A stretch of 64,000 bases of DNA from Parvularculaceae bacterium (GTDB lineage Bacteria; Pseudomonadota; Alphaproteobacteria; Caulobacterales; Parvularculaceae). The stretch spans positions 84,518-148,517 of the forward strand of contig JAJFFU010000216.1 of the NCBI GenBank assembly GCA_021776465.1. Reading direction: 5' to 3'. The notes beneath the pieces were generated by a model, which saw only the letters and a list, made by a program, of their open reading frames with translations, searched no databases and had not been told where the DNA came from. Both the position numbers and the translations under genes were made by a program. Shown piece after piece: positions 6,499-63,929 of this stretch. Within the stretch, counting starts at the first letter, position 1. Each line of letters opens with the position of its first letter.

Positions 6499-8325
6499 TC
6501 ATTTAATAAACCATCCAGTACCACCGTCAGAGTATATTACCATAGAATCATAATCCGTGTTTATCGTTTGGCTTGTCGCCCCATCAATAGTGTCAGCCCC
6601 TGCTCTGTCGATGGTAATGTTGTTTGCTGTCGCATTTCCGCCCTCATCCTTTATCGTGATTGGGTAGCCAGCAGGAAAAGCACTCGCCAATGGTAAAGTC
6701 AAAGTAACTGCTGCCGTAGGGGTGTGAATCACACCAATTGTTCTGTCCGTGGCAAGAATGGTGTAAGTAGTTGCGTCAACCTCAGTTCTGCCATAAGTGG
6801 CAATCGAGGTTCTAACTGTCGATACTGATAGATAATAAAAACTGCCAAGGTGCTCCATAGCTCCGCTCTCGGGAGTGGTTAAGAGAGTGCCCGAAGTAAA
6901 CTTCATAGGCGCAGTGTTGGCTGTAGCAGTTCCAGCTTTAAAATGAACTAACGCCGTTGAAACAGCAAGACCTATTCCAATTGTGTTGGTTCCAGCATTA
7001 ACGTAGAATAAGTTAGTGTCCGTGTCACCCTCTATTATTGTATCTACATCAACACCATCTGGATTTATATTAAAACTAGTATTAGCAGCGGTCCAATAGG
7101 TGTGGCGGACGGTGGTGGGTACAATAGCTTTTCCTGCTGCTCCGTCATCATTCATTCCCAGTAAAGAGAAGGTACCATCCGCAGCGTTGATTTGGGATGA
7201 TATGAAACGGTATGCTTTAAAGTTAGCATTGGAAAGAGCATTGTTTCCAATGATATCAAACATGGCGTCATCACCAGAGCCGATAAGTCGAATTCCACCT
7301 GTTCCCGTCGCTGATGAAAAACGGGCTACACTTCCCGCGATAGACATATTAACATCTAAAGAATGCGTGGGGATGGTGTTAATTCCGAAGGCGCCATTAT
7401 TGTCACTCGCGTTAACATAACTAAACCCACTTACCTCTCCTGTTAGAAATGTACGCTGAGTGCCAGTTGAATCTTGGCGAAGAGATAATTGTCCACCCGC
7501 ACCTTGTACCCCCCTTAAGATTACACGAATTCCTGTGCCTTCATTAATTCTAATCCCACCACTAGACCCTACTGGGGCAGTAATGTGTAACAACTCTGCG
7601 GGAACAGCTTCTCGAATCCCAACCCTACCCGTTGTGGTAGTTCCAAAAATAGCATCACCATCATTGAATAACTGAAATAGGTTAGTGCTAGTACTGTTTC
7701 TATAACGAATCCCTAAAGTTGTTGACACAGCATCTTGCCCTAATATGTCAAGGGTAGCCGCAGGGGTAGTCATACTAGCTCCAACACCAACCATAACCCC
7801 TGCGCCATCTTTAACATAGGTCACACGTGGGTTATTGCCAATCCTATCGTCAGCAAATATCAGTTTTCCATTAAAACTCGCACTATCAGCTATCGCCCAC
7901 GAATCAGTCCCAGCAGTCCTAAACTCAAGTCCTCCTGTAGATGTGGATGAGGCCTTATCAAGAATCATAGTCGCTGACCCAGCAGAAGCACTACCCGTTC
8001 CTTTTACACGATAAAGGGCTCCTCCACTAGAACTACTCTCCACGCCAAAGCCACCAGTTGCAGTATCTGGGTCTCCATCAAGGTCAGTAAAAATAAGATT
8101 AAATCCATCCCCTGTAAGTACACGGTTAGCCGTTAAGCTGTCAGAAGTTGTATAGATGTTAGCCGAGCCGCCGCCTCCTGTGTTAAATTCAACCCAAATA
8201 GTACCATTATATATCCAAGCATTATTGGTGGTGGTATTCCAATAGGTTTGACCCTCGAACAGCCCCGTTGGTTCGGCGGGGCGTCCTATTAATCCTGCGG
8301 TTCTATGTTGTCTCCATCCTTCCAT
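6499..8325 (-). CDS. Large tail-fibre/spike-like protein
   Basis: N-terminal PAEPTGLFEGQTYWNTTTNNAWIYNGTIWVEF and NIYTTSDSLTANRVLTGDGFNLIFTD modules; C-terminal ITIKDEGGNATANNITIDRAGADTIDG...YDSMVIYSDGGTGWFIK typical of phage fibres. Confidence 0.8.
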   Translation of the reverse strand: MEGWRQHRTAGLIGRPAEPTGLFEGQTYWNTTTNNAWIYNGTIWVEFNTGGGGSANIYTTSDSLTANRVLTGDGFNLIFTDLDGDPDTATGGFGVESSSSGGALYRVKGTGSASAGSATMILDKASSTSTGGLEFRTAGTDSWAIADSASFNGKLIFADDRIGNNPRVTYVKDGAGVMVGVGASMTTPAATLDILGQDAVSTTLGIRYRNSTSTNLFQLFNDGDAIFGTTTTGRVGIREAVPAELLHITAPVGSSGGIRINEGTGIRVILRGVQGAGGQLSLRQDSTGTQRTFLTGEVSGFSYVNASDNNGAFGINTIPTHSLDVNMSIAGSVARFSSATGTGGIRLIGSGDDAMFDIIGNNALSNANFKAYRFISSQINAADGTFSLLGMNDDGAAGKAIVPTTVRHTYWTAANTSFNINPDGVDVDTIIEGDTDTNLFYVNAGTNTIGIGLAVSTALVHFKAGTATANTAPMKFTSGTLLTTPESGAMEHLGSFYYLSVSTVRTSIATYGRTEVDATTYTILATDRTIGVIHTPTAAVTLTLPLASAFPAGYPITIKDEGGNATANNITIDRAGADTIDGATSQTINTDYDSMVIYSDGGTGWFIK

Positions 8326-17947: not shown

Positions 17948-19003
17948 CTATGCAACTCTTTTGCTTACTGGGAAGAAAAACTCTCCCATCCCATTAACAC
18001 CAGAATGCTTTTGTTTTCTGACAAGGTTAGGTCGAGCATAAAGTTCCGGCTCGTGACCAATCATGGTTCCGCCGGATGCTTTCGAACCTTTAGATACATG
18101 ACCTATTTTTCGTCCGCGCCCTCTTGCTCTCATATCCTTCGCTCGCTTTGGTCTACCCCATGCAAATCCGCTAAAACCAGAAGACACATCCATTACATCG
18201 CTGCCCACCTGTCCGAGATCATCACTGTAGCTTCCTGCGAAATTTGAGAGTTCATTCTTCATACCAGAGCCAGCTAAACCACCTTCTGAGATGTCAGCCT
18301 TCATACCACCCATGAAATTTAGAAGTTCGTTTTTGATATGAGTCTCTGGAAGACCCACTCCATGGATGTCACCCTGCATGCCGCCAGTAAAGTCGTAAAC
18401 TTCGTTTGCGAGTTCGTTTCGGTTCAAACCTCCACTATGGATGTCGCCTTTCATATCATCGGCGCCAAGGAAATTCAGTTCATTGAGAACCGCGTTACGG
18501 CTGATGCCAGCATTGTGAAGATCACCCTTCATACCGTCTTCCCCTAAGAAATTCAATTCGTTGAGAACCGCGTTACGGCTGATGCCAGCATTGTGGAGAT
18601 CACCCTTCATGCCGTCTCGGCCTAAGAAATTCTCCTTACCATCAACAGCCGAATAGCCATAAACTTGACCATCACGTGCAGCGTATGGAGCTAGTGGTTG
18701 ACCACCTGCATTTGAGTAACCATAAACCTCTCCATCACGCATAGCGTATGGGGCTAAAGGTTGTGGGTTGAAGTCCGAAAAGTCTCGGGCATCTGTTTTG
18801 GTAATCCCATCAAATCCTGCACGTATATCACTAGCTTCAATACCTCTTTGATATCCATCATAAGGAGCTTGTGGCTCTAGGCCAGCAACTGGTGACTCAG
18901 CTTTTCTCTTGTTGCTGATATACCATATAATACCTGTGGTTAGAACGGCAGCACCTATACCAACGCCCCACAACAGTTTTTTGTTTTTAAGCAAATCTTT
19001 CAT
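17948..19003 (-). CDS. N-terminal TM protein with tandem about 26-aa repeats
   Basis: MKDLLKNKKLLWGVGIGAAVLTTGIIWYISNKRK; repeats of NFLGxDGMKGDLHNAGISRNAVLNEL. Confidence 0.75.
   Translation of the reverse strand: MKDLLKNKKLLWGVGIGAAVLTTGIIWYISNKRKAESPVAGLEPQAPYDGYQRGIEASDIRAGFDGITKTDARDFSDFNPQPLAPYAMRDGEVYGYSNAGGQPLAPYAARDGQVYGYSAVDGKENFLGRDGMKGDLHNAGISRNAVLNELNFLGEDGMKGDLHNAGISRNAVLNELNFLGADDMKGDIHSGGLNRNELANEVYDFTGGMQGDIHGVGLPETHIKNELLNFMGGMKADISEGGLAGSGMKNELSNFAGSYSDDLGQVGSDVMDVSSGFSGFAWGRPKRAKDMRARGRGRKIGHVSKGSKASGGTMIGHEPELYARPNLVRKQKHSGVNGMGEFFFPVSKRVA
18240..18640 (-). repeat. Coding tandem repeat, about 78 bp (26 aa) units, two adjacent copies nearly identical
   Basis: Direct reading: gagaaccgcgttacggctgatgccagcattgtg[a/g]agatcacccttcat[a/g]ccgtct occurs twice; more diverged units follow. 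Confidence 0.8.
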
Positions 19004-21038
19004 TTGTTTCGAGTTTTTGATTTGTCAATCGTCTATTATTCTTAATTAAAAGCTGTTTGTTGAAATCATATTTGTCATCCTTAAATATTGAAGCACGTTT
19101 CCATTGCCTGTAATACAAAACAAAAGAAACTGTGGCACCCGCGAGGATGGAATACGCAGGGGATTGTTCAATTCCGTCTAAAATCATATGCTTCATTCTA
19201 AACAATGCCCTATTACCATCTTGGTAATAGGGTGATACCTTGTTTATTGGAAACATCACAAAGGCTACATTATTACCAGTGGCATCAAGGCGTGCCCAGT
19301 TCAACCCTTGAGAAAGTTGATCTTGTACGTCACTCGATACCTCCATACCATATATTCTTGCTGGCTCATTACGAATGCTCTCCATGAAGAAGTTGTAGTC
19401 ATCTGGATTTCCAAAAACTAAGTTTGGGTTGTTGGTTGGAACCGAATTATCCGCAGGAGCAAAAAGATTAAAGGCAACGGGAGAGGCAGATGTGTTAGTG
19501 ATGTCAAGTTGGAAAATTTTATTTCCCTTTCGAAGGTCTTGAATCATACGAACATATACATCGGCCTCGGCGCGAAGCTCTTCTAACTCGGTGACATACT
19601 TATCTCCTAATGGTTTAGGAGCTGAAAACCAATTCTTTTTCTCTAAGAAACATATGCGCTTTTGCTGGCGATAGTACAACACTAGATTTACACTCTCATT
19701 CGCTCTGACAGTGTAGTTTTTAAAGATCGTGAAGCCATTAAATATTAAGTTTCTGAAATCAAGACATGCTACAGTTCCCTGCTCTTGATTAGAGCCAACC
19801 TGTAACACAGGAAACCTGAAATAATCTATCTCAATCCCATCTGCATCGACTTTATTAACATTGACGCCCTCGCTTAGTTGGGCTTGAGAATCAGCATAAA
19901 AACAGATTCGTTCAGCCATAATAGGTTCGTCAAAAACGTTTAATACCAAAAAATTATACTCAGTAGTTCCACCTACAATTATGGCGGATGTTTTTTCAAT
20001 GAATCCAATAATTGTGGATGCCTTTGTGCCGAATACCATAATGTTGTTGACAACATCAATAGCTGCTTTTTGGTTAGCCGAATTAGAGAGCGGAGTCAGC
20101 CCCGTACTAAAGTTCACCACCGAATGGTCAGGGTATGCTACACGCATATCCCCAGTGACAGCCGCAGTTCCAAAATACATCCCTTTATCATTTGGGTTGA
20201 ATAAAAACTCTGCAATTGGAGTAGTATCGACATAAGTTGTCAAGGCATACGTAGTAGGATTGATAAAATATAACGTGACACCATCTATTCCCCAAACCTC
20301 TTTTGATTCTGGGTTGTAGGTTAAAGTCTCCTGTGTAGTTGCTACTGCTGTTATAATTAAACCTGTCGATAGACTATACACCACAAACCCTCCTCCTGCC
20401 CCCGTATTGACAATATAAATCTCATTAGTATCAGTATTAATCACCGATCGAGTAGCAGATAGTGGCACTGTAAATGTTCTAACCAAAACTGGAACTAAAG
20501 CCCCAGTCGAGAATTCGCCAACACCTAGGGTTAGAGTACTAAAAGAGATGTATAATAAGGTTGTGGTTGGATTGTAATTCAACTGCGTAGGCACAGACCC
20601 AACAGGTAATGCTGAGGTTGAAATAACAGTGTCAGTCGCACAATCAATAATTCGTAAAGTCGCTGTGGCGCCAGATACCGCGTAAATCAAGTCTTTATTA
20701 GCATCGTATTCGATATCTGAAATAGGTTCGGGAAGTAAAATAGTGTTGACTACCACTTTTGTTGTTGGATCAATTCTGTCTATCTCACCAATAGCTCCTG
20801 CAACCACGTAAAAGTCATCATTACCTGTGCAGAAGATGCTATTGCCATTAGCGCCAACTGTTAGAGATGTATAAACATCACTTGTTCTCTGGTTTAGAGG
20901 TGATATAGTGCGCTCAAAAAGGGATATATCCTGATCGGCACCCGTGGTGTTAGTCAGACTTATTTCTAAAGTCTGGATTTTGCTATCACAGGGCTTAATC
21001 ACTGACATTAATAGTGCTATCGTTAATATTACTCTCAT
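18987..21038 (-). CDS. 683-aa protein with duplicated beta-rich domain and inserted YVTN-type beta-propeller; candidate capsid or vertex-spike protein
   Basis: aa ~356-462 and ~508-648 align (YNF...EP...QxQLSxGxNxxxxDAxG...FPxxxV...LYYRQxKR); intervening region has propeller repeats (YDANKDLIYAVSGATATLRIIDCATDTVI; YNPTTTLLYIS). Confidence 0.7.
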   Translation of the reverse strand: MRVILTIALLMSVIKPCDSKIQTLEISLTNTTGADQDISLFERTISPLNQRTSDVYTSLTVGANGNSIFCTGNDDFYVVAGAIGEIDRIDPTTKVVVNTILLPEPISDIEYDANKDLIYAVSGATATLRIIDCATDTVISTSALPVGSVPTQLNYNPTTTLLYISFSTLTLGVGEFSTGALVPVLVRTFTVPLSATRSVINTDTNEIYIVNTGAGGGFVVYSLSTGLIITAVATTQETLTYNPESKEVWGIDGVTLYFINPTTYALTTYVDTTPIAEFLFNPNDKGMYFGTAAVTGDMRVAYPDHSVVNFSTGLTPLSNSANQKAAIDVVNNIMVFGTKASTIIGFIEKTSAIIVGGTTEYNFLVLNVFDEPIMAERICFYADSQAQLSEGVNVNKVDADGIEIDYFRFPVLQVGSNQEQGTVACLDFRNLIFNGFTIFKNYTVRANESVNLVLYYRQQKRICFLEKKNWFSAPKPLGDKYVTELEELRAEADVYVRMIQDLRKGNKIFQLDITNTSASPVAFNLFAPADNSVPTNNPNLVFGNPDDYNFFMESIRNEPARIYGMEVSSDVQDQLSQGLNWARLDATGNNVAFVMFPINKVSPYYQDGNRALFRMKHMILDGIEQSPAYSILAGATVSFVLYYRQWKRASIFKDDKYDFNKQLLIKNNRRLTNQKLETNERFA

Positions 21039-21850
21039 TATGCTGCACGTCGGGGCTCAATTTTTCCTCGATTAAATTTGTCTGTAAAATCACGGATAAT
21101 CTTATACCGCTTATGGTTCATTTCATTATTGCTATCTCTAAATACATATAAGAATGCCTGAGCTGCTTCAATTTCACTATACCCTTTTCCTAAATACATA
21201 TAGAGCCCGTTTATATCCGCAGCGGCCTCATCATCAATCGGTCTTCCGATCTTTGGGTTTTTATATTTATGTGAATACTCGTGCATTAAAATCACGAGTC
21301 TCATGGGAATGGTATATTTTAAAAAGTCTTTTTTGGACACTTCAATAATTCCAGTTTGATGTCCGATTCTTGCAGGAGTCTTTAGCTCATTCCCCTCAAT
21401 TCTGTCCCTGATCACATCGTAATAATCAATGGTATATCTTCCATCGTTTGAGCGGTATGTGGATGGTTTTGTTTTACCAGCATTGAGCACCCCTGCGTTT
21501 TTAGCAAAATGAAGAGCAAACTCATAAAAAGACTCATCTTCAGGGGTCATTTTAATCGCATATTCCACCAGCGGTGCCACTCTGACATCTACTATCTTAA
21601 AACTAACATCACCTCCAAGTGGTTGATTCCCGTTTTTAGTGTTGTACACTGAAACAATTAATTCATCAGGGCTCGTGGGTAATTTTATTTCAAATGTGCG
21701 TGTACCACGGACTTTGCCTTTCCTGTTCATATACATGGTGTCAGGCTTGTTGGCGTCCTTTGCGATTATCCTGATTTGCTCAGTTCGCTTAGTCTTCACT
21801 GTTATCTCTAAAGTGAAGGCCTTTTGGTTCGATGGCACAATAATTTTCAC
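21038..21850 (-). CDS. Putative zinc metallopeptidase
   Basis: LVILMHEYSHKYKNPKIGRPIDDEAAADINGLYMYLG: HExxH plus downstream acidic ligand motif. Confidence 0.65.
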   Translation of the reverse strand: MKIIVPSNQKAFTLEITVKTKRTEQIRIIAKDANKPDTMYMNRKGKVRGTRTFEIKLPTSPDELIVSVYNTKNGNQPLGGDVSFKIVDVRVAPLVEYAIKMTPEDESFYEFALHFAKNAGVLNAGKTKPSTYRSNDGRYTIDYYDVIRDRIEGNELKTPARIGHQTGIIEVSKKDFLKYTIPMRLVILMHEYSHKYKNPKIGRPIDDEAAADINGLYMYLGKGYSEIEAAQAFLYVFRDSNNEMNHKRYKIIRDFTDKFNRGKIEPRRAA

Positions 21851-27789: not shown

Positions 27790-28557
27790 TTATCCGCCGA
27801 TTGCCTTCCGTCTCGATTGGCCAAGAACTCTCTGTCCTGAGCGAGATGGGAATTTCATTCCTCCCATATTCACTTGTGGACGTCCGTACTGTTGTACAGG
27901 AGTCTTACCAGCAAGCCCTTTCGATACATTCACTTTCTCCGCTGGGAAGAAGGTATATGTAACGGTAGCAGATGCCAATATCGTAGACTGGATATTGGTG
28001 TTGCCATCAATCTTCAGGGCATAAGGGATATCTAGGATACCGCTTTGCTCCTGATAGGCAGAAAAGTACGATTGCGTGATAATCGGAATCGAAGCTGACT
28101 GACCGTTGGCATCTTTAACTGTCACAGTTAAGATTTGCGTAACCTGAGTCGCATTTGAAGACTGAACTCGAATTAACGAGGTCTCAAATGGTTGTGATGC
28201 AGATTGTAGCAACAGCTCAAGATATGAGACATTACTCTGCGCAGGTACAACGGTTAATCCTGCATCACTACCAAAGTTGGTAGACTGCAAGAACTGGTTA
28301 TTACCGAACAATACAAGGTTCAATGAACCAGCAGTTGTGTTGGTAACCGTAACTTGGTAAGGGGATGGTGATTTCGCAGAAACTCCTCCTCCTGACGCCA
28401 TTGCATAGTCGTCATCAGAATCGTCCCATACGTCATCTTCATACATGTCGTATTCATCCTCATACCCATCAAATCCTGAAAAGCTTTCTTCAGCTTCGCT
28501 CAGGTAGGAGTCAACATCAAAGTGCTGACCACCGAAATGTGAAACTTTTTTTCTCAT
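27790..28557 (-). CDS. Candidate major/abundant capsid-type protein (acidic N-terminal region + beta-rich domain)
   Basis: PYQVTVTNTTAGSLNLVLFGNNQFLQSTNFGSDAGLTVV...PIITQSYFSAYQEQSGILDIPYALKIDGNTNIQSTILASATVTYTFFP shared with ORFs 35330 and 41381; own terminator and strong upstream promoter. Confidence 0.6.
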   Translation of the reverse strand: MRKKVSHFGGQHFDVDSYLSEAEESFSGFDGYEDEYDMYEDDVWDDSDDDYAMASGGGVSAKSPSPYQVTVTNTTAGSLNLVLFGNNQFLQSTNFGSDAGLTVVPAQSNVSYLELLLQSASQPFETSLIRVQSSNATQVTQILTVTVKDANGQSASIPIITQSYFSAYQEQSGILDIPYALKIDGNTNIQSTILASATVTYTFFPAEKVNVSKGLAGKTPVQQYGRPQVNMGGMKFPSRSGQRVLGQSRRKAIGG

Positions 28558-28727: not shown

Positions 28728-28767
28728 CGCGTGATAAATTTTGGGTTAATAAATAAACTATCAGTAC

Positions 28768-28799
28768 CAAATCTATAATCGAGAATGTACTTATACAAA
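28768..28799 (-). promoter_or_regulatory. Bacteroidota-type promoter (TTTG-N20-TAGATTTG)
   Basis: Minus strand TTTG-tataagtacattctcgatta-TAGATTTG, matching the -33 TTTG / -7 TAnnTTTG consensus, upstream of the 28727/28557 genes. Confidence 0.7.
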
Positions 28800-28919: not shown

Positions 28920-29600
28920 ATGAAAAACCCGAAAGTTTTAGTCTGCGCGCCACAATCTGATAGGAAGAATTACTGCTTTGATTGGTGGCTTGATTCGAGT
29001 CAAAACCTAAATTATCAGAATTATGAGATTTTTCTAGCAGATAACTCCACTACACGCAAAAACTTTAAAAGGATACGCAAATTAGGAATTAATTGTGAGT
29101 ATATCAAACCAAAAGGCCGTGACACCATCACTTTAATCGCTGAAAGCCATGAAGCTTGTAGGAGGTTTGCAATTCGAAATAACTTCGATTACATGCTTCA
29201 CCTTGAAACCGATATTAAGCCCCCAGTTGATATTATAGACCAGTTGCTCTTTCATAAGAAAGATGTGGTTTCCGCTATGTACTTCATCGGTTTTGGGGAG
29301 GGCAGTAAACTTATGATTCAACAATCGGATCAGTTCTCAGAAACGGTTAACTTCACCGACAACCTTGATAATGCCGACTTGCACTTTGTCGACGGAACCC
29401 TTAAACAGGTGCATCATGCTGGGCTTGGATGCGCACTGATCAAAAGAAAGGTGTTTGAGAAAATACCATTTCGTAGAGAAAAAGGGGCTAATGTTCACCC
29501 TGACAGTTTTTTTGCTCATGATCTACATGTAAAAGGAATAAAGCAGTTTATAGATACCTCGCTGCTATGTGAACACAGGAATTCATATTCACATTATTAA
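28920..29600 (+). CDS. Glycosyltransferase (GT-A-like)
   Basis: KVLVCAPQSDRKNYCFDWWLDSSQNLNYQNYEIFLADNST...NNFDYMLHLETDIKPP. Confidence 0.65.
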   Translation: MKNPKVLVCAPQSDRKNYCFDWWLDSSQNLNYQNYEIFLADNSTTRKNFKRIRKLGINCEYIKPKGRDTITLIAESHEACRRFAIRNNFDYMLHLETDIKPPVDIIDQLLFHKKDVVSAMYFIGFGEGSKLMIQQSDQFSETVNFTDNLDNADLHFVDGTLKQVHHAGLGCALIKRKVFEKIPFRREKGANVHPDSFFAHDLHVKGIKQFIDTSLLCEHRNSYSHY

Positions 29601-29613
29601 AACTTTAAACCTT

Positions 29614-29856
29614 ATGTCTAATACAATGGAATACCGAGTAGTCTATACCGTGGGAATAGGTACTTTTGAAAAAGAATGCGCCCAGTTGGATAAGAATAAT
29701 TGGATACCGCTTTTCCCACCTCAATTCTGCCTTCCATCTAAACCGATCGAACATGGGACTCAACTGTCTATGATTCAAGATCATCTTTCTTCAGAAACAA
29801 TTTGCTATCAGCAATGGTCAAGGGCTTTAAACTCGGACACGCGAACTCACAAGTAA
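29614..29856 (+). CDS. Hypothetical protein (track ORF 29569..29856; start likely internal)
   Basis: ATG at 29614 follows the preceding stop. Confidence 0.45.
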   Translation: MSNTMEYRVVYTVGIGTFEKECAQLDKNNWIPLFPPQFCLPSKPIEHGTQLSMIQDHLSSETICYQQWSRALNSDTRTHK

Positions 29857-29875
29857 TATTATTAAAGGCTATCAT

Positions 29876-30142
29876 ATGAAACCACCAGCGAAACTAGAAC
29901 AGCTCGTTACCTTCGAAAATGCGCTACGCAGACATGAGTTTTACAAAAATTTTGGGTTATTTAAAATGGATGGCGATACAAAACTTTACGCTTTTAACAA
30001 AGAAGAAGCAATTGTATTTAAAACCTGTAAAAAGGGGTGGTACCCAGAAAGAGAATGGAACATCGAAACACTAAAACCTTTTTTGGAAATGTTCGACATT
30101 GAAATTAAAGCCGAGGAATTATATAAAGAATGGATATGGTGA
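29876..30142 (+). CDS. Hypothetical protein
   Basis: 88-aa ORF in the plus-strand cluster. Confidence 0.55.
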   Translation: MKPPAKLEQLVTFENALRRHEFYKNFGLFKMDGDTKLYAFNKEEAIVFKTCKKGWYPEREWNIETLKPFLEMFDIEIKAEELYKEWIW

Positions 30143-30213
30143 GATTGAAAGAAGCATTTAAGCATATAACTAGGAGTTACAGGTGAAATCGCGTTTATAC
30201 CACTATTTTTCTT

Positions 30214-30357
30214 ATGGGAATCACTGGCCCCATAGTAGATTGGATCATGGGGACTGGACTAGGTTTACTGGAATGTGTTTTGTGTGGAATTGCTTTTCCA
30301 GTAGCGGTGCTATTCCTGTTTATTCTAGGTGATCTTTATAAATATTTTGACGAATGA
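30214..30357 (+). CDS. Small hydrophobic protein (47 aa, MGITGPIVDWIMGTGLGLLECVLCGIAFPVAVLFLFILGDLYKYFDE)
   Basis: Read manually; ATGA overlap with the next start at 30354. Confidence 0.55.
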   Translation: MGITGPIVDWIMGTGLGLLECVLCGIAFPVAVLFLFILGDLYKYFDE

Positions 30358-30971
30358 AAATAAGTGTAATCATGCCCAGCTATCTGGGAGAATACGAGGG
30401 GGCGGCAAGTGATCGTGAAACTAAGTTTTTAAGAGCCGTGCGGTCTTTCGTGAATCAGACCTACCAAGACAAAGAACTCATTATTGTTTCCGATGGATGC
30501 GAGATTACAAGGGAGTTACTGACTAATAATATGTCAGAATGGGGTTCGTGCGTTGATTTGGTGTGTATTGATAAGCAACCATTGTTTTCTGGAAACGTTC
30601 GCGCCACAGGTGTAGAAATAGCTTCAGGTGAGATCATTTGTTATCTGGACACCGATGATTTCTTAGGTTTGAACCATCTTCAAGTGATTGCTAATAATAT
30701 GAGGGTTCATGATTGGGTTTACTTCGATGAATATCTTAATCAAGGGACTGTCAAGCCCCCTGCGGTTAAGTCCGTGGAGTTATTGAAAGATAGCGCAGGA
30801 ACTTCGAGTATTGCACACCTTAAGGAAAATGCGCCGAGTTGGCATGGTTGTGATGGATATGGTCATGATTGGATATTTATAGATCGTCTTATGAATTGGT
30901 CAAAGAACTATAAAAAAATGTATGGCGCTTCCTATCAAATTTGTCATATACCTAGATTGCTAGATTTTTAG
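30354..30971 (+). CDS. Family 2 glycosyltransferase
   Basis: ISVIMPSYLGEYEGAASDRETKFLRAVRSFVNQTYQDKELIIVSDGCE...GEIICYLDTDDFL. Confidence 0.85.
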   Translation: MKISVIMPSYLGEYEGAASDRETKFLRAVRSFVNQTYQDKELIIVSDGCEITRELLTNNMSEWGSCVDLVCIDKQPLFSGNVRATGVEIASGEIICYLDTDDFLGLNHLQVIANNMRVHDWVYFDEYLNQGTVKPPAVKSVELLKDSAGTSSIAHLKENAPSWHGCDGYGHDWIFIDRLMNWSKNYKKMYGASYQICHIPRLLDF

Positions 30972-34757: not shown

Positions 34758-35333
34758 TCACAGTTTTTGAAAGCAAACCATATTCGAGGTTGTGCCGATT
34801 AATTTCACCCTTTTATCATTTTTGATTAACTCCTCAGCCAAGACTCCACTACCATTTCTGAGGGTGGGCGTTTTGCTCTTCACATGATCTGCCTGTAGAT
34901 AAATCAAGCCTGATTTTTTAATCTTAGGGAAATATAACTCAAAATCACTTTTAACGTCTGAATAATGATGTGCCCCATCTATAAATATAAAATGGTAAGC
35001 ATTGTCTTCAAGTGAACCAACTACATTGCCACTATAATCGTTTAGGAAAGTGAACCTACTAAGGTGGGGCTTCACATTCTTATCTATCTTAGCCTGAGTT
35101 CCAATCAAACTTACATCAACACTGTCTGGGTTCAAAGGATCAATCCCTACAAGGCGAATACGCTTAGAAATTCCAAGAAGATATTTTGAAGTTTCGCCAT
35201 TTAAAACCCCTATTTCAATGCCAAGAATATGTTTCTTGTACTTGGCGAGAATGTCCTTAATACCGAGTGTAAAAAGTTTTTTATCACTCGCGGCAGTGTC
35301 GGGTAACTTAGTTTTTTTGTAGTGTGGTTTCAT
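34758..35333 (-). CDS. Class I SAM methyltransferase-like protein
   Basis: ILGIEIGVLNGETSKYLLG...HFIFIDGAHHYSDVKSDFELYFPKIKKSGLIYL. Confidence 0.75.
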   Translation of the reverse strand: MKPHYKKTKLPDTAASDKKLFTLGIKDILAKYKKHILGIEIGVLNGETSKYLLGISKRIRLVGIDPLNPDSVDVSLIGTQAKIDKNVKPHLSRFTFLNDYSGNVVGSLEDNAYHFIFIDGAHHYSDVKSDFELYFPKIKKSGLIYLQADHVKSKTPTLRNGSGVLAEELIKNDKRVKLIGTTSNMVCFQKL

Positions 35334-35839
35334 GATTCGTCTGTTGGTAATGATTCGTAATCCTTATGGAAGACTCTAAAAATTAGGGTAGTCTCAGGTA
35401 GTATTGGGATGGCAATACCTGTATATGGGTCTAATATTAATTGATAAGGTATGCGTAACTTGGTTTGAGGTTCGGAATCTTTCTTTAGGAAACTCTGGGT
35501 AATTATTGGTATTTGATAACCCAGTCCACTAGGGTATTTCAGCCCGACTTGTATTATCTCAGAAAGCTGAGAGGGATTAATACATTGTAACTCCAATAAA
35601 ACAGTCTCGAATTTATTACGCGATAACCAGTTAAGTATTTGCTGATAGCGAACGTTGGGACGTTGGGACGCTATCTCGATACCTTCATCTGAGCCGAAAT
35701 TTGGCTCATGTAAATGCCTGTCAGGAAAAAATAAAGCAGCCATCTTTGTTTTTGAACTACTATTAGTAATAGTTAGTTCAATTTTATCACCCATTGCCCG
35801 ATGTTCATGATTTTTATCGAGAGAATTTAATTCATTCAT
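35330..35839 (-). CDS. Paralogue of the candidate capsid protein 27790..28557
   Basis: IELTITNSSSKTKMAALFFPDRHLHEPNFGSDEGIEIASQRPNVRYQQIL...PIITQSFLK...IPYQLILD. Confidence 0.65.
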   Translation of the reverse strand: MNELNSLDKNHEHRAMGDKIELTITNSSSKTKMAALFFPDRHLHEPNFGSDEGIEIASQRPNVRYQQILNWLSRNKFETVLLELQCINPSQLSEIIQVGLKYPSGLGYQIPIITQSFLKKDSEPQTKLRIPYQLILDPYTGIAIPILPETTLIFRVFHKDYESLPTDES

Positions 35840-36444
35840 TATTTTTTTGTTGTAGGCGTGATGTAAATAATTCCTCTTTTTGCGCCAACAGCTTCACTGT
35901 TGTAATGATGGTGATAGCCTTCGGCTCCATAAATTGCGTCAAACTCAGGTTTAAGCCATTGGAAATTAAATGGCTGATCTCCGATCATGTCATACCCCAG
36001 CTCTGGATGGTTGGGGACTTGAAAGTCATGTATCGCTATCACAGGTTTAATCCTCGCCACTTTGATGGCTTTAAGCTCTTGTTTTAAAGGGCAATGTGCG
36101 CCCCAGTGAGCGTCAAGGAAAATAAAAGTGGTGTCACCTACCGCGTTGGCTGCAAATATTTTAGATAGTTCAACTGGGCTATCCCCAAGATGGGTGGTGA
36201 CATTTTCAAGAGCACCAATTCTATTAATATCCGCAACATGTAAATAGCTGGAATTGATCTCAATCGTATGGACGTTCTCATAGTGCTCAGCTAAAAAGGC
36301 AGTAGTGTAGCCGAGACAGGTACCCGTCTCGATGCAGTTTTTGAGATTAAAGGCATCTTTTAGGCGGATGAATTCCTTTTGAGCGAAGGTGTCTTGATTC
36401 AGAGCACCCTGTTGGTTTTGCATTAATACTGGTTCTTCTATCAT
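35839..36444 (-). CDS. SAM-dependent methyltransferase-like protein
   Basis: NCIETGTCLGYTTAFLAEHYENVHTIEIN...TTFIFLDAHWG. Confidence 0.7.
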   Translation of the reverse strand: MIEEPVLMQNQQGALNQDTFAQKEFIRLKDAFNLKNCIETGTCLGYTTAFLAEHYENVHTIEINSSYLHVADINRIGALENVTTHLGDSPVELSKIFAANAVGDTTFIFLDAHWGAHCPLKQELKAIKVARIKPVIAIHDFQVPNHPELGYDMIGDQPFNFQWLKPEFDAIYGAEGYHHHYNSEAVGAKRGIIYITPTTKK

Positions 36445-36468
36445 TGGTGATTGAATTTAGTCAGTTGT

Positions 36469-37113
36469 TTAAAATTCATAATTAAATCGTTTCAAGTCTT
36501 TGGCGAAATACTTCTCTACCATTTCGCGAGATTTATCGGTGTAATACTGTCTGTAGTCGTTCTCTCTGATTTGACTCTTGTCCAACACAGGGATTACCTG
36601 CGAGGGAAGGCCGAGCTTCTCGAATATAATTTTCTGATCCTTATCGATGTCCTCAAGTTTACCAATAAAATCAACTATCTCATCACCGTTGGTGTCTGTG
36701 ATCCAGTCCATAAGGGTTACAACCTTATTGCTTCCAAAGGGACGGCCAATAGGAGCGACCTTAAAATGTTGAATCCGTAAGTTCATGTAGTAAGGAATGA
36801 ACTCCTCCATGGTCATATTTCTACGCTCAATTTCTATGTGCATGAAATGATTCTTATGCTTTTTAGCGTAGAAGTAAGTCGATACTAAAAAATCAAATGG
36901 GTTTCTTATGATTGTAAACTTGTAATATGAGTCGTATTTCTTCAATGAAAGGTTCTTTTCAAAATGGAAGCGCATATCTCGTGGCAGAGAATGTACGCCT
37001 TGTAACTCCTCACTGCCATTTATTTCTTCATTCAGGACCTTTCTAAGACTCTTGCCGCCACATTTATACAGGTGGAAGAATATAAACTTCTTTTTATGAT
37101 TCACTAACGCCAT
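36469..37113 (-). CDS. Sulfotransferase (Sulfotransfer_2-like; track ORF extends to 37167)
   Basis: KKFIFFHLYKCGGKSLRKVL (5'-phosphosulfate-binding-like) and YKFTIIRNPFDFLVSTYFY (3'-phosphate-binding-like). Confidence 0.8.
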   Translation of the reverse strand: MALVNHKKKFIFFHLYKCGGKSLRKVLNEEINGSEELQGVHSLPRDMRFHFEKNLSLKKYDSYYKFTIIRNPFDFLVSTYFYAKKHKNHFMHIEIERRNMTMEEFIPYYMNLRIQHFKVAPIGRPFGSNKVVTLMDWITDTNGDEIVDFIGKLEDIDKDQKIIFEKLGLPSQVIPVLDKSQIRENDYRQYYTDKSREMVEKYFAKDLKRFNYEF

Positions 37114-37124
37114 AATCTCTCTTC

Positions 37125-37820
37125 TTAAACTAAGTTTAGTTTCTCTCTCGGGACGTATTCTTCCCATGCTCTATTTGGTGAATGTGCGTGATACTGCATC
37201 GGGGTGTACTTTACTCCAAAATCTTTAGAACCCCCAACTAGTTCATCACTCAAAAAATACATATTAGTGGTGGCAACCTCATGAATCAAAGAATATCCAT
37301 GGTGGTGGCCTAAAAGCTTGAACGCCTCAAAGCTGCCACCGTAATAATCATTTTCTTCCCAAACTTTTTTAGCATCATACTTCATTACTTTGTTCACCCC
37401 CACTGGAATGCATCCATTAAACTCGTTGACGATTAATCTTGGACGGTAGCCACCAAGTAAAATACCTTCCAGTACATGAACATCATTACCATCGATGTCT
37501 ATCGATAAAAAATCGAAAACCTTTGGAACGTCGTATTTCTCAAATAATGCGCAGATATTCTCAGAGGTGATAAACTCCTGTTTAATGTCGGACTCAGGAT
37601 CGGGGGCGCCATCCATTCTCAATCCAGTCCAACCTCTTTCCAATAAATACTTACTATTTGACATTGATGCTCCCAATCCACCAGCTCCAAAATCAACTAA
37701 AAACCGATTAGTGACTCCAATGTTCTTGAATATGTAATCGTACAGTGGTTCCTCCCCAAATTGAGAATACACCTTCTTTAGAGGAATATTAGGTAATTGT
37801 CTGATCCATGAATTATCCAT
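37125..37820 (-). CDS. FkbM-like methyltransferase
   Basis: YSQFGEEPLYDYIFKNIGVTNRFLVDFGAGG...FDFLSIDIDGNDVHVLEGILLGGYRPRLIVNEFN. Confidence 0.75.
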   Translation of the reverse strand: MDNSWIRQLPNIPLKKVYSQFGEEPLYDYIFKNIGVTNRFLVDFGAGGLGASMSNSKYLLERGWTGLRMDGAPDPESDIKQEFITSENICALFEKYDVPKVFDFLSIDIDGNDVHVLEGILLGGYRPRLIVNEFNGCIPVGVNKVMKYDAKKVWEENDYYGGSFEAFKLLGHHHGYSLIHEVATTNMYFLSDELVGGSKDFGVKYTPMQYHAHSPNRAWEEYVPREKLNLV

Positions 37821-37821
37821 T

Positions 37822-38502
37822 CTATCTTATTTTTTTAACCAAAATATCGGCGTTCGTCTTAACGACTACTTCCCAGTCGCTCCCAAGTAATTTCAAAATA
37901 TCCGACAACCCCTTCTGCCCAGCATAAAGTTCAATATCTGAATATTCCAACAACATCATGCCGATCGTGGGCAACATTTTTAGAGCACCTTCAATCATGT
38001 CGTATTCACACCCCTGAATATCGGACCAAATAAAGTCTATATGATCTACTCCGTTGTCCTTGCAGAACTGGTCAATAGTGTAAGTCTTAACAGTCTCTTC
38101 CCCTTTAAAATCAATCCATTTAAAACGGTCTACAACTTCTTTTGGCTTTCTAATAGAATTAGCGCCCGTCATCTGATTCCCACTACGTTCATGAATTCCA
38201 TCCGACAAGTATAGGGTCGTTTCTCCTATCTGATTGCTGATCGCGCCATGTATGATATTTACATCCAAATTATATCTTTGAACTTGCTCGTTTATTTTCT
38301 TGATGTTACGACTGTCTGGTTCAAACCCATAATATGCAGGTGAAGATTTACATGAATTGATAATTCTGATCGTATCTTCAGCCCAATGCATGCCTAGTTC
38401 AAAGACTATTGGATCGTCAATCTGTTGTAAATATGCGTATATATGTTTATAGATATTCATAAATCGATTAATGTTTTTAACTCCTTCATTCGGCAATCCC
38501 AT
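37822..38502 (-). CDS. FkbM-family methyltransferase
   Basis: VFELGMHWAEDT...YYGFEPDSRNIKKINEQVQR...DHIDFIWSDIQGCEYDMIEGALKMLPTIGMMLLEYSD. Confidence 0.85.
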   Translation of the reverse strand: MGLPNEGVKNINRFMNIYKHIYAYLQQIDDPIVFELGMHWAEDTIRIINSCKSSPAYYGFEPDSRNIKKINEQVQRYNLDVNIIHGAISNQIGETTLYLSDGIHERSGNQMTGANSIRKPKEVVDRFKWIDFKGEETVKTYTIDQFCKDNGVDHIDFIWSDIQGCEYDMIEGALKMLPTIGMMLLEYSDIELYAGQKGLSDILKLLGSDWEVVVKTNADILVKKIR

Positions 38503-39404
38503 GTGCAGTACTCACGGACAAATTTACACCCATTCATTCTAATTTGCTCACGTGCATACGGGTTGCTTTGAAAGTATTTTATTTTATCAGTAAGTTCCTC
38601 AATCGTCGACCATGTGCTAATATGATGATCCACGTCAAAATCTATGTCGACATTCTTGAATTTATGCGTTAAGCAAAATCCCCCTGCACCCATTAACCTG
38701 AACATCCTATCACTAGAATATCTGCCGTAATCAAAATGAGAGAGATTGATCGCAATATCTGAACTTCTATAAGCGGTGGCCTCTTCTTGCAAATTCAGAA
38801 ACCTGCTCGTAGGATCAACCTTATTCCAATTACTACCGAAAGCCGTGAAATTGTTAGCAAACGCCTGTTTTAATCTTATCACCATTTCATATCGGAGATT
38901 AGAGAGCGGGAAAGACTGGTTGGCGCCTAAATAATTTGAGCCCATGAAAACAACAGATGGAGTTGGGACTCTTCGACCAGTTGGCGTAAATATATTTGGG
39001 TCAAACCCCACCTGTAAAAAATCAGCGGGAATATTGGCCTTTTTCATTTGCTCCACATCGAACATATTACTAAAAAGAGATAGGGTAATTACTTTTCCCA
39101 ACTCCTTATACCATTCAGGAAGTGGATACCGAACATCTCCTGTCCAGTTCAAGGTAATGCTTGTTTTGGTCATTTGTCTTGCAGTTGCCAGAGTGAGAAT
39201 CTCAGGGGCTTGTATCTGCATAAAAACCACATCAGGCTTGAATTGACTGTGAATTTTTAAAATGTCTGAATTAATTTTCTGAGGATCATTTTGATAAGGA
39301 AGCCAATTGTAGTGACAAGTCTCAAACTCTTTTTCAAACGATCGCCAAAGACCAACGTTATGATTGCCAAGTGCAAAGTGTAATAATTTTGGTTTAGGCT
39401 TCAT
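38457..39404 (-). CDS. Glycosyltransferase (GT-B, CgeB/GT1-like)
   Basis: VVFMQIQAPEIL...ADFLQVGFDPNIFTP...VVFMGSNYLG...SDIAINLSHFDYGRYSSDRMFRLMGAGGFCLTHKFKNVD. Confidence 0.8.
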   Translation of the reverse strand: MKPKPKLLHFALGNHNVGLWRSFEKEFETCHYNWLPYQNDPQKINSDILKIHSQFKPDVVFMQIQAPEILTLATARQMTKTSITLNWTGDVRYPLPEWYKELGKVITLSLFSNMFDVEQMKKANIPADFLQVGFDPNIFTPTGRRVPTPSVVFMGSNYLGANQSFPLSNLRYEMVIRLKQAFANNFTAFGSNWNKVDPTSRFLNLQEEATAYRSSDIAINLSHFDYGRYSSDRMFRLMGAGGFCLTHKFKNVDIDFDVDHHISTWSTIEELTDKIKYFQSNPYAREQIRMNGCKFVREYCTWDCRMKELKTLIDL

Positions 39405-40095
39405 TGAGAGATGTTGGTTGTATTTGTAAATAAGGTGGCTTGATCCTATCTATAGTTTTGCCATGGATGTAATTACGAACCCCCGACAAATGTAAATGAT
39501 AAACTACCACATCCCTACTGGGATTAATAACTTTAAAATATGATGAGAGTAAATGAGCAATTTTATTATCGCAGCCAGCTTTTCCAAGGGTGAAATCCGC
39601 TTCTTTAATATGAGGGAATACGCCTTTTATAATCCAGCAGTCCTGACTGTCTGGTCGATTAAAAAACTTAAATGTCTTCTGGACAACATTCTTAACGTCC
39701 CACCTACAGAGAGCTAGACAATACCGCTGGTTCCAATGCCACCCCTTGAGGGTCTTGAGCGATTCAATTTTAATGTAAATATCAGTATTGGCAATAATAC
39801 TTAGTTGGTCACAACCATCCTTCTTATTAAAGAATCTATGGTTTCTGGTGATCTCAAAATAATCATTAAAGGTGGGTTGGTGAGCGAAATGGATTAGTTT
39901 GATCTTTGGCTTTCTACTTAAAACGCTGGGATTCGTATATAATATTTCAAAGTCTTTAACAAGTGCAGGAGCGATAAGAATAAATATTCGATCGATTTCG
40001 TCATTTAGGATATTACGAGCCACGCAAATGTTATTCTCCTGATGTCGAGAAGGGTTCTTATCAACATAGTAGTTTATATAGAGATTGGCTTTCAC
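39394..40095 (-). CDS. Putative glycosyltransferase
   Basis: NEIDRIFILIAP-like N-terminal region, SIIANTDIYI acidic motif; overlaps and is surrounded by GT genes. Confidence 0.6.
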   Translation of the reverse strand: MKANLYINYYVDKNPSRHQENNICVARNILNDEIDRIFILIAPALVKDFEILYTNPSVLSRKPKIKLIHFAHQPTFNDYFEITRNHRFFNKKDGCDQLSIIANTDIYIKIESLKTLKGWHWNQRYCLALCRWDVKNVVQKTFKFFNRPDSQDCWIIKGVFPHIKEADFTLGKAGCDNKIAHLLSSYFKVINPSRDVVVYHLHLSGVRNYIHGKTIDRIKPPYLQIQPTSLNEA

Positions 40096-40757
40096 TGTCT
40101 AGAATTCTCAATAATGTGTAAGTCCTCACGCCAAGACCATGAGTTAGAAATCAATAAATCGTCGGGGGCCCCATATCCAAATCTTGGATGGAGATACAGG
40201 TGTACAGGAGGGTGGTCGATCACCTTGAGGGCATCATCTTTAGATGCACGCAAACTTAATTCATCTAAACAAAAGTTAGCATTTAACAAAGGGTTATAAA
40301 CATATGTATAATGATCGTAAAAATGACGCCCCACTACAGGGATATAATGGTGTTTATTATTGATGTGATTAGCAGATGGTAAAAGGGTGACTCGTCTCTT
40401 TGAACAACTTCGCTTAATTATCGTGTCGAATCTATCACGAGTGATCGGGGTAAAATCAGTAATATGCAATAACAAGTCCCAATCTTTTACCCTGTCGATA
40501 TCCCTATTGATAGAGTCCACTTTATCAGTGTGATCCCCAAAATATAGAGAAATCGGAAATCTTTTCAAGAGATACTTAAGGCGTAGGAGCGTAACCTTAT
40601 TATAGATCATGGTGTCGTCCTTATCAATAGAAATTAACAGACGGATGTGCTCGTGATCCTTAGCATGATTAAAAACCGAGGTGATTATCTTAAAGAGGCT
40701 TTCTGGTCTAGATCGACAAGCATACTTTATAAGGAGGTTTTGGTTTTTGGATTCCAT
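40092..40757 (-). CDS. Putative glycosyltransferase, paralogue of 43685..44371
   Basis: LLIKYACRSRPESLFKIITSVFNHAKDHEHIRLLISIDKDDTMIYNKVTLLRLKYLLKRF. Confidence 0.65.
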   Translation of the reverse strand: MESKNQNLLIKYACRSRPESLFKIITSVFNHAKDHEHIRLLISIDKDDTMIYNKVTLLRLKYLLKRFPISLYFGDHTDKVDSINRDIDRVKDWDLLLHITDFTPITRDRFDTIIKRSCSKRRVTLLPSANHINNKHHYIPVVGRHFYDHYTYVYNPLLNANFCLDELSLRASKDDALKVIDHPPVHLYLHPRFGYGAPDDLLISNSWSWREDLHIIENSRQ

Positions 40758-40758
40758 T

Positions 40759-41424
40759 TTATAATCCCCCCCTAATTATGCGCTGTAAGTCAGCATTGAA
40801 TATGTTCATGCGCTGCTCATAAAGCCCTTGCGTTTCTGGCTTTAAATACCTCTGCCAATGTACCGAGTCTGGACTGATGTGATAGGGTTGAATTTTTGTT
40901 TTTTCATCCTGATCATCTTCCAACTTTTCAGAAATAGCTCTCACATTATCCTTGGAACATAACTCGATAACTTCATCTATATTGACTCGGGAATTACCTA
41001 AATATTCTTCAATGGTCTCAACTACCGAGACTGGGGATTCTGAAAACTGCCGATAATCCAACCAAAGGCCGTGCTCATTCTTATTGAATTGATATGAATA
41101 CTTCAAATGCTTTTCATAGTAATCAATAAATGAATTGATCGTATTCATATGAAGATAGCCACGGAACTGTTTTCCCTTTTTTAAAACCGTTAGCCGCTTA
41201 TGGCTCACTAAGGTCTGTTTGAAATCTCTGAATGTGTTTACAAATGGTTTGCCAGCGTACTCTTGCTTAAACTCATGTGTCTTTATAACCTTGTGGTACG
41301 GGTACATCAAACGTAACATGTTGTAGATCAATGTGCTGCCGCTTCTTGGTACTCCATATTGAATTATTTCAGACATTCCTTTAAGCAGGGTTTGTTGGGT
41401 CGTCTTCAGGGGTCTGATAATCAC
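40759..41424 (-). CDS. P-loop sulfotransferase-like protein
   Basis: IIQYGVPRSGSTLIYNMLRLMYPYHKVIKTHEF. Confidence 0.8.
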   Translation of the reverse strand: MIIRPLKTTQQTLLKGMSEIIQYGVPRSGSTLIYNMLRLMYPYHKVIKTHEFKQEYAGKPFVNTFRDFKQTLVSHKRLTVLKKGKQFRGYLHMNTINSFIDYYEKHLKYSYQFNKNEHGLWLDYRQFSESPVSVVETIEEYLGNSRVNIDEVIELCSKDNVRAISEKLEDDQDEKTKIQPYHISPDSVHWQRYLKPETQGLYEQRMNIFNADLQRIIRGGL

Positions 41425-42574
41425 CAGTCATATCCGTATCAATATTGCGCTCTGTTATAGGCTCTAGAGATGGCGTCCCTACAACCGATTTAATCGGTAT
41501 TGGTTCTTTCTTAACGAAAAAGGTGAAAACAACCTTAGATTTAGGGAGGATGTCAACTTCAAGACGTCGATTGCTGTCAATCTCTATTCTAATAGGGATA
41601 TCAATAACCCCCTTCTGGTGTTGTTCTTCACTAAAATAATGCTTTGGATTTATTGGTTGATAAGAAAAAGAACCATCTGCATCTTTAGAAATATACTGAA
41701 TGGGATTCTTGACCTGTGTATTGTTACTCGAACTCACTCTTATTTTAGATATTTTGAAGGGGTTAAAGGCTGATTGGGCTAATAACTCAAAGTATTCTAC
41801 ATTAGAATATGAACACTCTACAGAAACCCTTCTGTCTGACCCAAAATTTTTATGTGCCTTAGTGAAGAACTGATTAAAACCAAATATTACCGCACGCTTG
41901 GTTTTTCGAGTAGGATTAGTAATGGTTACCCTATATTTAGGAAGAATTTGGGGAGAGGTAAACTGACCACGGTGGGGTGTAACAGGCGCACGTAGATAAT
42001 TCGTTAGATTAAGGCCATAATTATATGAAGATTTGATTATCTGCTCATCATAAGGCGCCTCATACACCCTCACAAATTTACGGGCAGGATGACGCTTGAT
42101 ATATAAATCTATGACAGAGATGATCGCAGGGCGCAGTTTCTCAAACAAGATTAACCCTTCAATAAAATCAAACTTATCATCCTCCGATTGGTTTACTTTA
42201 CCAACGTCATCTATGCATCGTCCTATGATGGCTAATAATCCCGTCTTAGCAGTCTTAAGCAGAGGATTTGCGGGGTCAACCAAGGCGTAATCCGTGACTA
42301 ATAAATCGGTATGAAAATGCTCTTTATTATCGTAGAATACTGCATAAAGCATATGATGAGCGCGTGTACCACTGGGATGTTTTTTGCTTTCAAATTTTTT
42401 GTCTACCCTTTTATATCGGAAACCCTCTAAAGGTTCTGGTTGAGAACACTCCGCTTTTATCTGTTTTAAAACATGGCGTTTGCCAGAAGATGTTGACGCA
42501 TCATAGTAATCAACGGTAACTTTACAAGGGTTCTTAGGATTTGGTGTAATTTCAATATAGGTAGGTTTTACCAT
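41381..42574 (-). CDS. Paralogue of candidate capsid protein with extra N-terminal region
   Basis: YRVTITNPTRKTKRAVIFGFNQFFTKAHKNFGSDRRVSVECSYSNVEYFELLAQSAFNPFKISKIRVSSSNNTQV...VFTFF aligns with 27790..28557. Confidence 0.7.
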   Translation of the reverse strand: MVKPTYIEITPNPKNPCKVTVDYYDASTSSGKRHVLKQIKAECSQPEPLEGFRYKRVDKKFESKKHPSGTRAHHMLYAVFYDNKEHFHTDLLVTDYALVDPANPLLKTAKTGLLAIIGRCIDDVGKVNQSEDDKFDFIEGLILFEKLRPAIISVIDLYIKRHPARKFVRVYEAPYDEQIIKSSYNYGLNLTNYLRAPVTPHRGQFTSPQILPKYRVTITNPTRKTKRAVIFGFNQFFTKAHKNFGSDRRVSVECSYSNVEYFELLAQSAFNPFKISKIRVSSSNNTQVKNPIQYISKDADGSFSYQPINPKHYFSEEQHQKGVIDIPIRIEIDSNRRLEVDILPKSKVVFTFFVKKEPIPIKSVVGTPSLEPITERNIDTDMTGDYQTPEDDPTNPA

Positions 42575-42575
42575 T

Positions 42576-42809
42576 TTATATAGGATTTTTATCTAAGGTT
42601 AATTTCACAGCCTCTTCAACTGATCGGAGCAATACCAACTCATCATCCTTTATTATTATCTCGAATTCTCTTTCCACTTCCATGGAGAATGAAACCATAT
42701 CCAGACTGTCTGCATCTAAATCAACAAACAATGTATCAAGTGAGCACTCAGTGTCAAACCTTTCGTTCACTAAATCAATCATCCTTTCTTCAATCTTAGT
42801 TTGGTTCAT
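42576..42809 (-). CDS. acpP-like: Acyl carrier protein
   Basis: LDTLFVDLDADSLDMVSFSMEVEREFEIIIKDDEL: DSL phosphopantetheine-attachment motif and ACP length (77 aa). Confidence 0.9.
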   Translation of the reverse strand: MNQTKIEERMIDLVNERFDTECSLDTLFVDLDADSLDMVSFSMEVEREFEIIIKDDELVLLRSVEEAVKLTLDKNPI

Positions 42810-42813
42810 AAAC

Positions 42814-43680: not shown

Positions 43681-43684
43681 CTTA

Positions 43685-44371
43685 CTATTGTTTTATCCCA
43701 AAATTATTTGCTTTTCTATTGAGGTATTTCTCTTGATCCTTAGTCCAAAATTCTTTAATATGAAGCAATAACGTGTCTACTTCTCCACCAACGTTGGTGG
43801 GATGGTTGTGGCGATATAGACTCAGGTCAAAATATTTTATCCTCTGTAGCATAATAGCAACCTCTGTATATTCCTGATGGGCAAACAAAAAATCATAAAC
43901 AGGAGCAAGGGCATAGCCAAATCTTCGGTAATATTCACGTCCAATAATAGGCATCGTACTCACCTTGTCACCAGAGAACCCATCGTTGAAGAATACATTG
44001 CCATCTAGATTTGAAAAGCTAATATCAAATTTTTCACGGATCACATTATCAAATCCTACAGATAGATACTCCATGTCATCCGAAAAATGAACAAGTATAT
44101 CCCAAGGGTCTGCGGTGTTTATATCTCGGTTTACGGCCTCTATCCCGCCATTTCCGTCACCAAACAATATTTTCACATTATGGTTTTTCAAATACGGTTT
44201 TAGCCGAAGAAGGACATCCTTGTTGTACATACTCGGGTCGTTCTTGTCTGCGGTGATCAGAATCTGGTAATCTATCTTATTGCCAAGATAAGTTAGGATA
44301 TTATTAAGCCCCTCAAAAAACTTTTTAGGTCTTTCTCGTGTAGCGAATTTGAAAAGAATTTTATGTGGCAT
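43685..44371 (-). CDS. Putative glycosyltransferase, paralogue of 40092..40757
   Basis: LFKFATRERPKKFFEGLNNILTYLGNKIDYQILITADKNDPSMYNKDVLLRLKPYLKNH. Confidence 0.65.
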   Translation of the reverse strand: MPHKILFKFATRERPKKFFEGLNNILTYLGNKIDYQILITADKNDPSMYNKDVLLRLKPYLKNHNVKILFGDGNGGIEAVNRDINTADPWDILVHFSDDMEYLSVGFDNVIREKFDISFSNLDGNVFFNDGFSGDKVSTMPIIGREYYRRFGYALAPVYDFLFAHQEYTEVAIMLQRIKYFDLSLYRHNHPTNVGGEVDTLLLHIKEFWTKDQEKYLNRKANNFGIKQ

Positions 44372-63889: not shown

Positions 63890-63929
63890 GGCGTGGCACA
63901 GCCCCTCTTTCGGGATTATGGAGGAATAA

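Follow-up and report, generated by a model that had tools for sequence, protein, structure and literature searches.

Known tailless bacterial viruses have genomes of mostly ~8–30 kb. At the vertex of PRD1 and PR772, made up of P31, P5 and P2, a penton base is combined with spike proteins, and the head of PRD1 P2 contains a distorted five-bladed propeller, a proposed receptor binder (PMC6750898, PMC4901313). In phiCjT23, which infects Flavobacterium, protein P13 unites a capsid-integral base and an external spike in a single protein, and there is precedent for the swapping of spikes on penton bases (PMC9719478). The spike protein of HHIV-2 contains four jelly rolls arranged end to end (PMC6414509), and genomes of the Sphaerolipoviridae measure ~30 kb (PMC12643093). 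Propellers are also found in tailed phages, where that of phi11 Gp45 is used, and that of phiKZ gp131C has been proposed, for host binding (PMC4901313).

The 683-aa protein described here is encoded on the minus strand at positions 18987–21038 of the window, the whole 64,000-nt stretch of DNA that we analyzed, and we propose, with a confidence of about 0.58, that it is a host-recognition spike within the shell of a probably tailless, membrane-containing virus of Bacteroidota. It recalls PRD1, in which a vertex penton base goes together with a propeller spike, and P31 is among the structural matches of the base domain of the 683-aa protein; in PRD1, however, base and propeller are separate proteins, whereas here the base domain itself holds an inserted propeller, of the YVTN type, and we found no sequence similarity between the PRD1/PR772 vertex proteins and the 683-aa protein. 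Like P13 of phiCjT23 and the PM2 spikes, it would hold a capsid base and a spike in one protein, but P13 has an N-terminal base followed by the spike, with no loop insertion and no mention of a propeller, and belongs to a virus with a 7.6-kb ssDNA genome. The Sphaerolipoviridae (HCIV-1, HHIV-2) and Thermus phage P23-77 have several different single-jelly-roll proteins per virion and an internal membrane, features that the virus proposed here would share; these viruses with two major capsid proteins and vertical single jelly rolls differ in their ~30-kb genomes and in that a nested propeller is undescribed in them, and no sequence similarity to Sphaerolipoviridae or P23-77 was found. Host binding by a propeller, as in Gp45 and as proposed for gp131C, is also the role that we propose for the propeller of the 683-aa protein, but Gp45 and gp131C are baseplate proteins, and in Gp45 the propeller is placed after the stem and before the tower domain, outside any capsid-type domain.

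The protein starts with a hydrophobic segment (aa 1–18, 20985–21038; KD17 1.76) that is a helix in the AF2 model and may be a signal peptide or a short membrane anchor. This is followed by the first part of copy 1 of a ~145-aa beta domain (aa 19–48, 20895–20984), a beta-propeller insert of ~290 aa (aa 49–339, 20022–20894), the second part of copy 1 (aa 340–463, 19650–20021), a linker predicted to form a long helix (aa 464–502, 19533–19649; AF2 helix 479–505), an uninterrupted copy 2 (aa 503–650, 19089–19532) and a C-terminal helix, all on the minus strand; the plus strand of the same interval has stops throughout. The initial annotation had claimed a duplicated capsid-type domain with a propeller inside its first copy, and both claims were borne out. 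Copy 1 (aa 340–463) and copy 2 are 31% identical across 111 aa by BLASTP (E 1e-20), and their alignment stands at z = 30 relative to 1000 shuffles, none of which (0/1000) scored equally high. The second part of copy 1 also matched a domain profile built without copy 1 with an hhalign probability of 96% (E 1.1e-9), and HMMER gave copy 1 an iE of 5.7e-12 against a profile built likewise. The start strand said to be shared by the two copies is weak by itself (aa 19–48; z 3.7, with 3/1000 shuffles equally high, and iE 2.5 against a profile excluding that strand), and we assign it to copy 1 because relatives keep the same strand in position directly before the propeller.

Judged by sequence, the propeller signal is modest in the 683-aa protein and unmistakable in one of its relatives. 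NCBIfam matches of the 683-aa protein were solely to propeller families (TIGR03866, E 5.6e-4; YncE, E 0.15), with no match to the YVTN repeat model TIGR02276. Foldseek searches with the full-length AF2 model returned mostly propellers, the YVTN propeller 1l0q best, from a low-confidence model whose propeller region consists of repeated short strands with pLDDT mostly <50, too poor for propeller geometry. A profile made from the propellers of nine relatives matched aa 44–334 with E 9.6e-9, compared to E 6.8 for the reversed-sequence control. In the relative from the Bacteroidia bacterium SW_35 genome (G743), TIGR02276 was matched with E 2.8e-24 and 84.8 bits, against a curated cut-off of 27.85, and its propeller matched PDB 1l0q with E 1.1e-26. 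The insert appears to be of the same repeat family as the archaeal S-layer protein 1l0q, YncE and the TIGR02276/TIGR03866 propellers, although 1l0q and YncE are cellular proteins and, unlike the 683-aa protein, have no insertion in a viral domain. The novelty that had been suggested for such a propeller holds in part: propellers are known in phage receptor-binding proteins (PMC4901313), but in the open-licence full-text literature we found none described within a jelly-roll capsid-family domain.

Modeled alone, copy 2 (AF2 pLDDT 75, pTM 0.73) has 8–9 strands and two main helices. Its best Foldseek matches in the PDB were to the coat of satellite tobacco mosaic virus (E from 2e-3, with a probability of 0.99 at that value; probability 0.95–1.00 and TM 0.35–0.41 over all of them), these being chains of one protein many times over; against viral models the best match was an unnamed protein (E 1e-4), and the PRD1 penton P31 was also matched (E 0.012, probability 0.91). 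In this structural comparison, of a kind proposed in the initial annotation, the best matches are jelly-roll capsids, but with TM-scores of only ~0.4; overall, those of the base domain are ~0.3–0.42, below the usual same-fold threshold of 0.5. The viral single-jelly-roll (SJR) fold is recognized as an eight-stranded BIDG/CHEF sandwich, and Pfam, PHROGs and PDB profiles gave no match when capsid-family membership of the domain was examined. The models suggest, with moderate confidence, that the base domain is likely to be a jelly roll, and the propeller would then enter after the second modeled strand and before the third.

The gene immediately upstream (21038–21850, minus strand) encodes a 270-aa metalloprotease-like protein whose HExxH motif is invariant in alignments, and synteny shows it to be a conserved neighbor; it may be a maturation protease, and no other protein appears to serve as well as bait for finding these viruses. 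A search with an IS1595 transposase led to Bacteroidota genomes, the domain profile matched two genomes reached in this way, one of them G743, and the HExxH bait then yielded G766, G789, G878, G889, G950, G1148, G1176, G1181 and G1191, together with a 169,658-bp IMG/VR contig. In all genomes examined the spike-type gene is preceded by the HExxH gene, and in every genome found with the bait it is the very next gene downstream. A propeller occupies the spike-type slot in ten genomes (G743, G766, G789, G878, G1148, G950, G1176, G1191, G1181 and G889, the last truncated at a contig end), and wherever both sides match, the domain profile is interrupted at the same place (profile position ~27–34). 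These same-slot relatives are 449–659 aa in length and have a single domain, the smallest (G1181, 449 aa) being domain plus propeller and nothing more. The IMG/VR relative has 205 aa, one uninterrupted domain and no propeller, while the truncated G745 protein begins with an uninterrupted domain and has no propeller in this first copy. A second domain copy is absent from all complete relatives examined. The tandem is therefore not the conserved unit; it is the nested propeller that is conserved, the duplication being local. Hydrophobic N-termini occur in the 683-aa protein and four relatives, and several other relatives have no N-terminal transmembrane (TM) segment.

The G743 element spans ~61–101 kb of a 212-kb contig and resembles an integrated provirus, because ordinary bacterial genes flank it on both sides; a direct-repeat attachment site around it was looked for and not found. 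Its gene order is that of the window, namely propeller protein, HExxH protein, small basic and TM genes, acidic-tailed capsid candidate, ATPase, mid-size genes and two very large genes, the last corresponding by position only. When the 683-aa, 255-aa, ATPase, 1350-aa and topoisomerase proteins or provirus homologues were used as queries, nothing was found in Pfam, PHROGs, INPHARED phages, PLSDB plasmids or IMG/VR, and patterns derived from alignments of the domain family either lacked conserved stretches or gave no matches. Among Pseudomonadota genomes, the domain profile matched only the assembly itself and, weakly, two further sequences; the latter were judged from their contents to be chance, one being a TolB-like protein and the other a reading frame interrupted by stops, with surroundings that look alphaproteobacterial.

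The same domain occurs in six proteins of the contig, of 683 (which has it twice), 255, 169, 397, 288 and 209 aa, and in two more on contig C170 of the same assembly. The 255-aa protein (27790–28557), with a single domain and an acidic N-tail, heads the structural operon and is conserved over its full length in 8 genomes; in the proviruses the capsid-type protein has a basic C-tail as well. It is the best candidate for the major capsid protein and appears to suit that role better than the 683-aa protein. Upstream of its gene is a promoter-like match of Bacteroidota type, TTTG-N17..20-TAnnTTTG (28766–28799), a pattern found 3 times in the window compared to ~0.4 expected in single-base shuffles. 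Domain comparison identified the 169-aa single-domain paralog (35330–35839), the 397-aa protein (41381–42574), whose C-terminal half carries a domain (41489–41956) 46% identical to that of the 255-aa protein (E 6e-34), and the 288-aa protein (42814–43680), with the domain in its N-terminal half (43231–43680), where a second degenerate copy was looked for and could not be demonstrated. The features given here with coordinates are all on the minus strand. A FastTree phylogeny of all domains, built on a short, divergent alignment, placed the capsid-type proteins apart from a spike-type group of both 683-aa copies, the 209-aa TM protein, the 205-aa IMG/VR protein and the split provirus proteins, with local support of 0.93–0.98 for the main spike-type nodes and 0.68 for the pairing of the two 683-aa copies.

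Several further observations concern the surroundings of these genes. Plus-strand glycosyltransferase-type genes occupy the slot beside the 255-aa gene (28920–30971), and glycosyltransferases, sulfotransferases and FkbM-type methyltransferases are interleaved with three of the jelly-roll-like paralogs at 34758–44371, the latter block suggesting that the virions are glycosylated. In five proviruses, the corresponding slot beside the capsid candidate holds instead differing plus-strand cargo (between candidate and ATPase in G743 and G766), at G743:C26 77.0–83.6 kb (L057/L058), G766:C51 113.7–121.9 kb (L068/L069), L081 7773–20000, L082 17241–19998 and L083 17207–19058. By eye it resembles defense genes, with AbiEi/AbiEii-like pairs, a SEFIR/TIR-like protein and large ATPases/nucleases, and the slot may be a defense hotspot inside a tailless provirus. 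The G745 assembly, titled Woesearchaeota archaeon, holds contigs of this virus group (L050, L051, L052) with a 42% identical capsid candidate, which are probably mis-binned. The IMG/VR relative also has a 1939-aa ORF (L067:5510–11329) with many short A-K/D-GGG type repeats between different modules.

The initial annotation had assumed a viral structural context, and this is what the gene content indicates. TM-like ORFs number 32 of 56 in the right-hand structural region and 7 of 92 in the left early region, and the structural region also has endolysin genes and a holin gene. A 308-aa P-loop ATPase of HerA/FtsK-like type (44377–45303, minus strand; DUF87 E 9.4e-4; provirus homolog 29% identical, E 7e-35; sub-threshold terminase match, E 0.012) is a candidate packaging ATPase. 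The 683-aa protein is encoded among structural genes, in the company of many membrane proteins and of this packaging-type ATPase. A terminase, portal or HK97 capsid was looked for and not found in 66 ORFs on the right side (Pfam E≤1e-3) and 103 on the left (Pfam E≤1e-5), nor among the PHROGs families listed (best 25 of 32 on the right side, best 25 of 72 on the left), the PHROGs result being the weaker evidence of the two; the virus sequence on the contig may be incomplete. Singelaviria-like viruses are recognized by two SJR major capsid proteins and a packaging ATPase, and the locus has several putatively SJR-like paralogs and a candidate for such an ATPase. The window further encodes, at 58690–61377, an 895-aa protein whose core is that of a eukaryotic-type topoisomerase I (type IB; E 4e-24).

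The contig, of 148,517 bp, has the window as its right end and belongs to an assembly whose nearest relatives among the genomes searched look alphaproteobacterial. The alphaproteobacterial host that this suggests was rejected, because Shine-Dalgarno motifs are missing from the viral genes (2 of 61, against a background of 13%) and the virus relatives are in genomes of the class of G743 (Bacteroidota). Relatives of the IS1595 transposase are mainly in Flavobacteriales and other Bacteroidota. At its end (~63560–64000) the contig matches DNA from the glnB region of the genus to which the assembly belongs, which is alphaproteobacteria-like, while the remainder resembles a Bacteroidota virus, so that we suspect a chimeric end and mis-binning; the join, near a tRNA-Leu gene, may be an assembly chimera. 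Contig C170 has 17 tRNA genes on one strand and after them, on the opposite strand, six tRNAs and a ParB-like gene (L019:7782–12877); it may be a further part of this virus that is linked to host DNA. A tmRNA gene with the tag GNLDTMKAAA is predicted where the 148.5-kb contig begins on the left (L003:134–590).

In the arrangement that we propose, one jelly-roll-like domain would sit in the capsid, probably at the vertex as a penton-like base, and the YVTN-type propeller would leave one loop of this domain and offer a ligand-binding face to the cell surface. The second, uninterrupted base-domain copy stands in tandem with it in the 683-aa protein, complete relatives lacking it, and the N-terminal membrane segment of several relatives could tie the spike to the internal membrane. 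We infer the location in the virion, the vertex position, the outward orientation and receptor binding, and consider a host-recognition spike in the virus shell probable because ten relatives have the nested design too, in the corresponding gene of the locus. The propeller is present in some relatives and absent from others (the 205-aa protein and the first copy of G745), which fits an exchangeable recognition module; this variability, the five hydrophobic N-termini and the precedents of PRD1 P2, phi11 Gp45 and phiCjT23 P13 support our proposal. A vertex spike had been offered in the initial annotation as the alternative to a major capsid protein, and the structural-gene context, the conserved nested propeller and the spike-type clade favor it. 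Other long genes that appear fibre-like (6499–8325, and a 428/567-aa pair in proviruses) could be the receptor binders instead.

The major capsid alternative, in which the two copies would make up one pseudo-hexameric subunit of a double-jelly-roll protein with the propeller as its tower, accounts for tandem copies in one chain and a large loop insertion. It was not supported and we consider it very improbable, since same-slot relatives are single-copy, the operon is headed by another conserved gene, that of the 255-aa single-domain protein, and both copies group with spike-type relatives outside the capsid-type clade. The homology of the base domain to the domain of the capsid candidate also weighs against a membrane-anchored internal assembly or scaffold factor that would lie on the membrane side, unexposed on the virion; the hydrophobic N-termini of the 683-aa protein and four relatives and the many small TM proteins nearby are in keeping with such a role, but the relatives that have no N-terminal TM segment are not, and we regard it as improbable. 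Less improbable, though still unlikely, is a decoration, cement or enzymatic facet protein, whose propeller would stabilize the shell, bind virus-made glycans or process polysaccharide and would have no part in host recognition. The many viral glycan genes (glycosyltransferases, sulfotransferases, FkbM-type methyltransferases) and the conserved HExxH gene adjoining the spike-type gene are consistent with this possibility, whereas a propeller that some relatives have and others lack is more what one expects of a recognition module.

If the 683-aa protein is a host-recognition spike, its design, which we have not found described, is one in which the recognition module is nested in a capsid-type domain, as opposed to following it in a fusion or being attached as a separate protein. 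With a 148.5-kb contig and a 169.7-kb IMG/VR relative, these viruses would be unusually large for tailless bacterial viruses. Tentatively, at somewhat under even odds, they may form an undescribed lineage of tailless, membrane-containing Bacteroidota viruses built on single-jelly-roll capsid proteins, ranging from ~40-kb integrated proviruses to ~150 kb or more, with a vertex protein in which a receptor-binding propeller is inserted in the jelly roll. Some related genomes have a propeller in this slot and others do not, so that gain and loss of the spike module can be studied directly, and since Bacteroidota genomes carry relatives in integrated form, there may be a laboratory host from which such a virus can be induced.
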